Source: Calothrix sp. MO_192.B10 | GTDB lineage: Bacteria > Cyanobacteriota > Cyanobacteriia > Cyanobacteriales > Nostocaceae | Reading direction: 5' to 3' | NCBI GenBank assembly: GCA_030065055.1 | Contig: JASJDS010000098.1 | Location: 1 to 64,000, forward strand | DNA: 64,000 nt | Shown: positions 40,141-42,607 of the stretch, one piece after another | Numbering within the stretch: position 1 is the stretch's first letter | How the letters are laid out: every line of letters starts with the position of its first letter | Notes under the pieces: generated by a model | What the model saw: the letters and a program-made list of their open reading frames with translations, nothing else | What the model was told of the DNA's origin: nothing | The model's database searches: none | Made by a program: the position numbers and the translations under genes

Positions 40141-40740
40141 ATGATGTTATTCCAGAGAAATTTTTGGAAACTCTCTGCAACGGGTATGGCAGTCTTTGTT
40201 AGCATCTTTACCAGTAGCATTCCAGTAACAGCAGAAGAAAGTCTTCTCAATCAAAATCAAGCAGACAATTTAGAGTATACAATAGCGCAACTAAACAAGG
40301 AGAGCCGAAGATATGACTCTTGTTTGAGGAGAGCAGATAGTAGAGAAGAAAAAAAATACTGTAAAAGAGTTTTCGGTAGATCGGCAAAAGGTAGATACCG
40401 AAGAAGGGGTAGAAGATATAACTCTTGTTTAAGGAAAGCCGATAGCAGACGTGAAATAAGGGAATGTAGAAGAATTTTTGGTAGAACTAATGAAGGTAGA
40501 TACCGAAGGAGTAGAAGATATAACTCTTGTTTAAGGAAAGCTGATAGCAGACGTGAAATAAGGGAATGTAGAAGAATTTTTGGTAGAACTAACGAAGGTA
40601 ATAACAGATGGAGAGCTAGACGTTGGGACAGAGAACGCCGTCAAAGATTTCGCCGGTGCATGAATAATGCGTACAGCAGACGACAGGAAAAGCGGTGTTT
40701 GAAAATTCGTAGGCAAAAAAATCCTTACGCTTACGACTAA
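40141..40740 (+). CDS. Secreted arginine-rich protein with four CX12C repeats
   Basis: 199 residues, ATG at 40141 after GAGG. Residues about 8-31 form a signal peptide (ATGMAVFVSIFTSSIPVTA). The mature chain is extremely basic and built of four units, each with two cysteines exactly 12 residues apart: SCLRRADSREEKKYC, SCLRKADSRREIRECR (twice) and RCMNNAYSRRQEKRC. Units 2 and 3 are nearly identical in DNA as well (about 105 bp, starting near 40390 and 40495), a recent duplication. The pattern suggests disulfide-closed helical hairpins in the periplasm or outside. I recognise no family; a polyanion-binding or antimicrobial-like role would be a guess. A strong terminator follows. Confidence 0.75.
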   Translation: MMLFQRNFWKLSATGMAVFVSIFTSSIPVTAEESLLNQNQADNLEYTIAQLNKESRRYDSCLRRADSREEKKYCKRVFGRSAKGRYRRRGRRYNSCLRKADSRREIRECRRIFGRTNEGRYRRSRRYNSCLRKADSRREIRECRRIFGRTNEGNNRWRARRWDRERRQRFRRCMNNAYSRRQEKRCLKIRRQKNPYAYD

Positions 40741-41715: not shown

Positions 41716-42171
41716 TTATTTATTACTAGAAGTAAAAGGTTTGAGCCAACCCCATTTTATTGATAAATCTAAACACTTAGCTGTCAAAAAGAACCAGAGC
41801 AAGCTGGCGATCGCCAAAATCATGGCAGGCATTACTGTATCATTTAGGTTGAAGCCCATATCTATTTGAGTTAAACCCCTGACTAACCCGAAAGCAAGCA
41901 CAGCACCCGATTTGAGATGGGGATTTTCGTCTTGGCGGATAATGTAGCGGTAGGTAACGCCAAACAAAAATCCAGAAAAAGTAGCCGTAGTTGCACTGAG
42001 AATCAGGTGTAAATCTAATACATTTTTATATCTCAAACTAGGTAATTGTAATAAGTGAGCCAGCCAAGCCGTAATACCGAAGGCACAGAGGAGGCACAAA
42101 CCCCCAATAATACCTGCTTTGAGGGACTCAAGTCGTTCTGCCAGCAAAATAGAGTTACCAGTATCGTTCAT
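41716..42171 (-). CDS. Four-helix membrane protein, unknown
   Basis: A 151-residue protein with about four membrane segments (near residues 20-42, 52-72, 83-98 and 112-133). SATTATFSGFLFGVTYRY and GLVRGLTQIDMGF look like conserved cores of a cyanobacterial family that I cannot name. It is followed after three bases by the exonuclease gene and is transcribed away from petN. Confidence 0.75.
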   Translation of the reverse strand: MNDTGNSILLAERLESLKAGIIGGLCLLCAFGITAWLAHLLQLPSLRYKNVLDLHLILSATTATFSGFLFGVTYRYIIRQDENPHLKSGAVLAFGLVRGLTQIDMGFNLNDTVMPAMILAIASLLWFFLTAKCLDLSIKWGWLKPFTSSNK

Positions 42172-42265: not shown

Positions 42266-42352
42266 ATGATTTTGACACTAGGTTGGGTTTCACTGTTGAC
42301 CCTTTTCACATGGTCGATTGCTATGGTAGTTTGGGGACGCAACGGACTATAA
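42266..42352 (+). CDS. petN: Cytochrome b6f complex subunit PetN
   Basis: A 28-residue single-helix protein, the smallest subunit of the cytochrome b6f complex. The sequence [11 protein letters not shown]...[15 protein letters not shown] agrees closely with cyanobacterial PetN, including the invariant VVWGRNGL end. The ATG is at 42266; it lacks the extra Ala seen after Met in some homologues. TATGAT at 42218-42223 could be the -10 box. A second tiny gene begins seven bases after the stop. It is divergent from the membrane-protein/exonuclease pair. Confidence 0.93.
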
Positions 42353-42359
42353 GAGAACC

Positions 42360-42521
42360 GTGGAAAGTCCATTCCTGAGTATTTTGGCTTTAGTCGCCTT
42401 TGTACTGCTGATAGTAGTAACAGGTGGCGTTGGTTATTTAACCCTAGCAAATTGGCGCGATCGCCGTCGCCAAGAGAAAGAAAAACGGGAACTCCGACAA
42501 ACTACCTCCAGACGGAGATAA
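42360..42521 (+). CDS. 53-residue membrane protein behind petN
   Basis: From GTG at 42360 the frame encodes MESPFLSILALVAFVLLIVV...: one strong membrane helix (about residues 6-29, ending TGGVGYLTL), then a highly charged tail (WRDRRRQEKEKRELRQ) that should face the cytoplasm. AAGAGAA before the start may be its ribosome site. It begins seven bases after petN on the same strand, so co-transcription and a link to the b6f complex are likely by context. I cannot name a family; the helix-plus-basic-tail form and the coding pattern suggest a real gene. Confidence 0.72.
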   Translation: MESPFLSILALVAFVLLIVVTGGVGYLTLANWRDRRRQEKEKRELRQTTSRRR

Positions 42522-42607
42522 TTCCGGAAATTTCAATTAATTTAACCGAACTTAACAGTAGGGATGCGATCGCTTCTCTACTGTTAATTTTTCTCCTCCT
42601 TCCCTCT

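Follow-up and report, generated by a model that had tools for sequence, protein, structure and literature searches.

The closest described counterpart of the gene reported here is sgl0002 of Synechocystis sp. PCC 6803, which is annotated as a hypothetical protein of 49 amino acids at positions 159812-159961 of the minus strand and lies about 42 bases behind petN (sml0004, 160004-160093) (PMC5126843). In 2016, sgl0002 was noted to be located near petN and to be co-expressed with photosynthesis genes, and its expression was found to cluster with that of 15 photosystem II (PSII), 8 photosystem I (PSI), 3 cytochrome b6f and 12 phycobilisome genes (PMC4770689). These two articles were the only ones in the open full-text literature in which we found sgl0002 mentioned. 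The cytochrome b6f complex itself contains the tiny single-pass proteins PetG, PetL, PetM and PetN, which are present in the structures as stoichiometric subunits. A regulatory subunit of b6f, PetP (Ssr2998), is shared by cyanobacteria and red algae; a role in tuning b6f under illumination has been proposed for it, and it binds peripherally on the cytoplasmic side, above PetG, PetL, PetM and PetN (PMC9342900).

We analyzed a stretch of 64,000 nucleotides from Calothrix sp. MO_192.B10 (contig JASJDS010000098.1, positions 1 to 64,000 of the forward strand), hereafter referred to as the window. An original prediction, made from the letters of the window, had described a 28-codon petN gene, a spacer of seven bases and a 53-codon frame with a GTG start. 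This layout was found to hold exactly (coordinates 42266-42352 and 42360-42521), and the features of the locus are as follows:

42266..42352, plus strand: petN (cytochrome b6f subunit VIII), 28 codons, ATG start
42350..42359, plus strand: petN stop codon and 7-base spacer TAAGAGAACC, by direct reading
42360..42521, plus strand: small membrane-protein gene (encoding the petN-following protein), 53 codons, GTG start
42552..42592, plus strand: terminator-like hairpin with a 13-bp stem and a GCGATCGC loop core, followed by TTTTT

As judged from curated family models, the upstream frame is certainly PetN; it matched Pfam PF03742 over its full length (E=1.1e-16, 60.8 bits against a cut-off of 20.3) and the NCBIfam PetN equivalog NF011331 (70.9 bits against a cut-off of 56). 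The expectation that both frames, lying below the usual gene-size limits, would be missed did not hold for petN, which is caught by these models, nor for the second gene, which by position and size corresponds to the annotated sgl0002 of Synechocystis. We consider sgl0002 to be very probably the orthologue of the small gene in the window, as indicated by its position behind petN, its strand, its size and its one predicted hydrophobic domain, a single helix (PMC5126843, PMC4770689), although its gap to petN is longer (about 42 versus 7 bases).

Regarding the neighboring genes, the frame at 41716-42171 (minus strand), which is divergent from petN, encodes a putative membrane protein of 151 residues without a Pfam match and was found near petN in 48 of the 72 relatives having 3 kb on either side. 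The CBS-domain gene located downstream in the window was near the small gene in only 1 of 72 relatives. The frame at 40141-40740 (plus strand) encodes a secreted-looking and very basic protein of 199 residues, also without a Pfam match, in which a RYNSCLRKADSRREIRECRRIFGR-type unit carrying two cysteines is repeated in tandem.

The petN-following protein of the window has the sequence MESPFLSILALVAFVLLIVVTGGVGYLTLANWRDRRRQEKEKRELRQTTSRRR. It contains a single membrane helix at about residues 5-29 (Kyte-Doolittle maximum, residues 5-25) followed by a basic tail (11 K/R and 4 D/E, pI 11.5), which confirmed the one clear membrane helix and the basic, charged tail described originally. The motif YLTLANWRDRRR in the window protein fits the family pattern YLTxx[ED]WRDRR(R), which ends the helix; the strict pattern was present in 140 of the 183 distinct copies and a relaxed form in 174 of them. 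Family products are single-pass proteins of 45-75 residues. AlphaFold2 predicted one helix for the window protein (residues 3-51, with 52 residues folded; mean pLDDT 86), which is expected for a protein of this kind and adds little.

To place the protein in a family, we compared it with Pfam and NCBIfam and found nothing above the cut-offs and only generic helices below them. In particular, the similarity to PsbZ/Ycf9 was a weak helix similarity below the cut-off (E=0.014-0.016); PF01737 scored 15.8 bits against a curated cut-off of 22.3, and the match spanned one helix, whereas PsbZ has two. The protein resembles PetP in being cyanobacterial and small; however, it was predicted as a single long membrane helix and had no family match in Pfam or NCBIfam, which sets it apart from the peripheral PetP. 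No credible PDB chain was revealed by sequence or profile search, although PetN of several b6f structures was recovered by the same kind of search. Additionally, Foldseek returned nothing credible for the protein among the PDB folds, a lone helix being an uninformative query. A mobile or viral origin of the gene was also considered and rejected, as no relative was found in viral contigs, phages or plasmids.

The original prediction had proposed searching for the frame behind petN in other cyanobacteria and looking for purifying selection, and it had named absence of the frame or random stop codons in close relatives as evidence against a gene. Shuffled 64-kb windows contained about 120-150 frames as long as the small frame; because such lengths arise often by chance, length alone is no evidence, and conservation decides whether a chance open frame simply happens to lie 3' of petN. 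The small frame was encoded by 58 of 59 relatives, and the exception was G028, the assembly of which also lacks petN. Upon a class-wide search with a profile built from 27 orthologues, the small gene was matched in 375 of 390 genomes of the same class, compared with 377 of 390 for PetN, and both were missing from 11 genomes. Across the phylum, it was found in 111 genomes, all belonging to the photosynthetic class, and in 0 of the 130 genomes of the other, non-photosynthetic classes. The 76 distinct close sequences showed a median dN/dS of 0.20, zero in-frame stops and the greatest variability at the third codon position, and selection on the gene is purifying. The GTG start was kept across the family, mostly at exactly seven bases 3' of petN. 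This conservation and selection, the shared start position and the retention of the gene where it is unlinked from petN rule out a chance open frame, to which we assign a negligible probability. The small frame is a real gene of ancient cyanobacterial origin, very probably translated from the petN message.

The small gene was located directly 3' of petN, on the same strand and within 250 bases (usually within a few bases), in 171 of the 183 distinct copies, a count that includes the broken Rhopalodia gibberula copy described below. Neither of the two neighboring genes counted above was retained this consistently. This linkage persisted in the deepest branches, including Gloeobacter-like genomes, presumably those of Gloeobacter violaceus and G. 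kilaueensis. About a dozen copies that were not found close to petN were also conserved, which indicates that conservation of the small gene is independent of any overlap with petN. The gap between the two genes was widened to about 140-670 bases in L176 (genome G062), L184, L185, L189 and L197. The upstream stretches of L178, L179, L181, L031, L035, L038, L039, L088, L103, L124 and L198 contained no petN, several of these stretches extending just 0.6-0.8 kb upstream. At L134 (genome G316), petN was followed by a hairpin, with unrelated sequence behind it and no recognizable copy of the small gene. Genome G170 had three matches, and two near-identical copies lay about 800 bases apart (G170:C4:529294-530225), possibly as a local duplication.

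Co-transcription with petN, which the tight spacing had suggested originally, was found to be very likely, because the gap measures seven bases, Shine-Dalgarno-like bases lie over the petN stop codon, and a hairpin with a T-run occurs solely after the second gene. The seven-base gap is too small for a terminator hairpin between petN and the small gene. Relatives carry GAGG, GGGG or GGAGG at the petN stop and spacer, a Shine-Dalgarno-like sequence that overlaps the stop codon. Such bases were present within 16 nt upstream of the small gene in 60 of the 76 distinct family sequences, and the version in the window itself was weak. The hairpin at 42552-42592 folded with -20.4 kcal/mol (z -6.9) and likely ends the two-gene transcript; similar hairpins were found 3' of the small gene in 18 of 30 relatives versus 18% of shuffles. 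An automatic terminator scan was blank in the window because it covers short loops only, and the hairpin was obtained by folding and a custom scan.

The near-constant linkage to petN (171/183), the likely co-transcription and the small, single-helix nature of the protein, which it shares with PetG, PetL, PetM and the product of the directly upstream petN, would all suit a b6f accessory subunit or assembly helper, the role proposed originally. Such a protein could be loosely bound and lost on purification, and it could be dispensable in endosymbionts if respiratory b6f needs less. However, PetG, PetL, PetM and PetN are present in the b6f structures, whereas the petN-following protein is found in no solved complex, and purified Synechocystis b6f consists of eight subunits and PetP (PMC9342900). 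A stable subunit is thus unsupported.

A natural experiment among endosymbionts also bears on this role. In four complete small genomes of 2.5-3.1 Mb (G398, G426, G604 and G605), which fall within a family of unicellular nitrogen fixers, the small gene was missing or weakly matched, and it was present in the free-living G392, G602 and G603 of the same genus. By matching to Table 1 of PMC5638926, G398 and G426 were identified as the spheroid bodies of Epithemia turgida and Rhopalodia gibberula, respectively, and G392 as the free-living Cyanothece PCC 8801; the identities of the other genomes were inferred. Spheroid-body endosymbionts are non-photosynthetic (PMC5638926, PMC11070190), and respiratory electron transport persists on the thylakoids of their relatives (PMC11070190). 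Neither an intact PsaA/B gene nor an intact PsbA/D (D1/D2-type) gene was found in the four genomes, where these were absent or reduced to fragments with stops. In contrast, petN, petM and the C-terminal cytochrome f domain of petA were all intact, and behind the intact petN a recognizable small gene remained in place but was broken by stops and frameshifts. The small gene was therefore lost together with the photosystems while b6f was kept. All four broken copies come from close relatives and may trace back to one loss of photosynthesis.

Since the small gene is broken where respiratory b6f is kept, b6f as such can probably be assembled and operated without it, and an obligatory assembly role is unsupported. 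PetN and PetM are kept in these photosystem-free endosymbionts, unlike the petN-following protein, which is not retained wherever b6f is. These comparisons make it improbable that the small protein belongs to the b6f core or is indispensable for its assembly, and we regard a loosely bound accessory subunit or helper as rather doubtful.

UCYN-A is reported to possess PSI and b6f but no PSII (PMC4804200). In the two UCYN-A-like genomes of our set (G572 and G573; sizes of 1.44 and 1.49 Mb), PSI was intact and PSII was absent, and a 44-residue open frame was present behind petN. This frame showed a dN/dS of 0.15 overall and 0.10 in the helix part, indicating purifying selection, and the small gene is thus retained with PSI alone. 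The contrast between retention and loss rests on about one event each, namely the one loss group and the UCYN-A lineage. As the gene is gone with the photosystems and kept with PSI alone, a function in light-driven flow on the b6f-PSI side is the most economical interpretation, which agrees with the expression clustering of sgl0002 (PMC4770689). The small protein would then probably serve light-driven electron flow and not b6f itself, as a transient partner of either b6f or PSI.

The tracking of the photosystems by the small gene, its retention in the PSI-only UCYN-A and the co-expression of sgl0002 with PSI, PSII and antenna genes could also be produced by a factor for PSI or PSII biogenesis or for chlorophyll delivery, which would share the petN message for co-regulation alone. 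The conserved gene-order partner is, however, a b6f gene and no photosystem gene. Moreover, the R. gibberula spheroid body, in which the small gene is already broken, has 9 of 10 chlorophyll genes in seemingly intact form (PMC5638926), and this argues against a simple tie to the chlorophyll pathway. Chlorophyll synthesis alone is accordingly a poor explanation and is disfavored, and we consider a biogenesis or delivery factor to be unlikely.

We also considered a general thylakoid membrane protein that has no specific role in electron transport and whose link to petN is historical. In favor of this, the protein consists of just one helix plus a basic tail, and binding to lipid head groups is common among such tails. 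However, the gene is kept in Gloeobacter-like genomes, and Gloeobacter has no thylakoids. It is also broken in diazoplasts, which still have thylakoids (PMC11070190). Thylakoid structure alone is thus insufficient, and a general thylakoid protein is very improbable.

A sequence difference within the family concerns the tail. In the UCYN-A-like copies L154 and L155 (G573 and G572, respectively), WRDRRR was changed to DRYGRY or DRHSSY. WKDKKR was found in place of WRDRRR in genomes that we take to be Prochlorococcus-like from their size and similarity. Phycobilisome binding, as the sole reason for WRDRRR suggested by the UCYN-A loss, was rejected, because Prochlorococcus-like genomes should lack phycobilisomes and keep WKDKKR. 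The basic tail is conserved alongside full oxygenic photosynthesis and is lost in the PSII-less lineage; judging from this one lineage, its main importance may lie in linear flow, and its loss in UCYN-A may mean that the tail is relevant to linear flow or PSII and not to PSI.

Returning to light-driven electron flow, we give an even chance to the more specific proposal that the small protein is a transient partner of b6f when b6f feeds PSI in the light. By the positive-inside rule, the basic YLTxxEWRDRRR tail would lie on the cytoplasmic side and the short acidic N-terminus on the lumenal side; the helix would be positioned beside the complex, with the basic tail as a putative cytoplasmic contact. 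A possible task is the docking of b6f, either to PSI or to partners in cyclic flow; alternatively, the protein may coordinate the biogenesis of b6f and PSI. We infer from these considerations a thylakoid location, the orientation given above, a physical contact with b6f or PSI and a molecular task of this kind. A further proposal, which we regard as tentative and rather doubtful, is that the protein is a universal, membrane-anchored ancestral coupling factor that would take b6f from a respiratory to a photosynthetic mode through a link to PSI or cyclic flow, its basic motif having become dispensable once PSII and linear flow were gone.

The small gene was already known in one organism as the hypothetical sgl0002. 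As far as the databases and the open full-text literature covered here show, its near-universal conservation, the lack of a family model for it and its disappearance along with photosynthesis had not been described. Among the oxygenic cyanobacteria sampled, nearly all keep the gene, a consistency close to that of petN, and yet it is without a Pfam or NCBIfam family. A protein that is kept with the photosystems and lost where respiratory b6f alone remains offers a direct genetic handle on the switch of b6f between respiration and photosynthesis in the thylakoid chain that is common to both.
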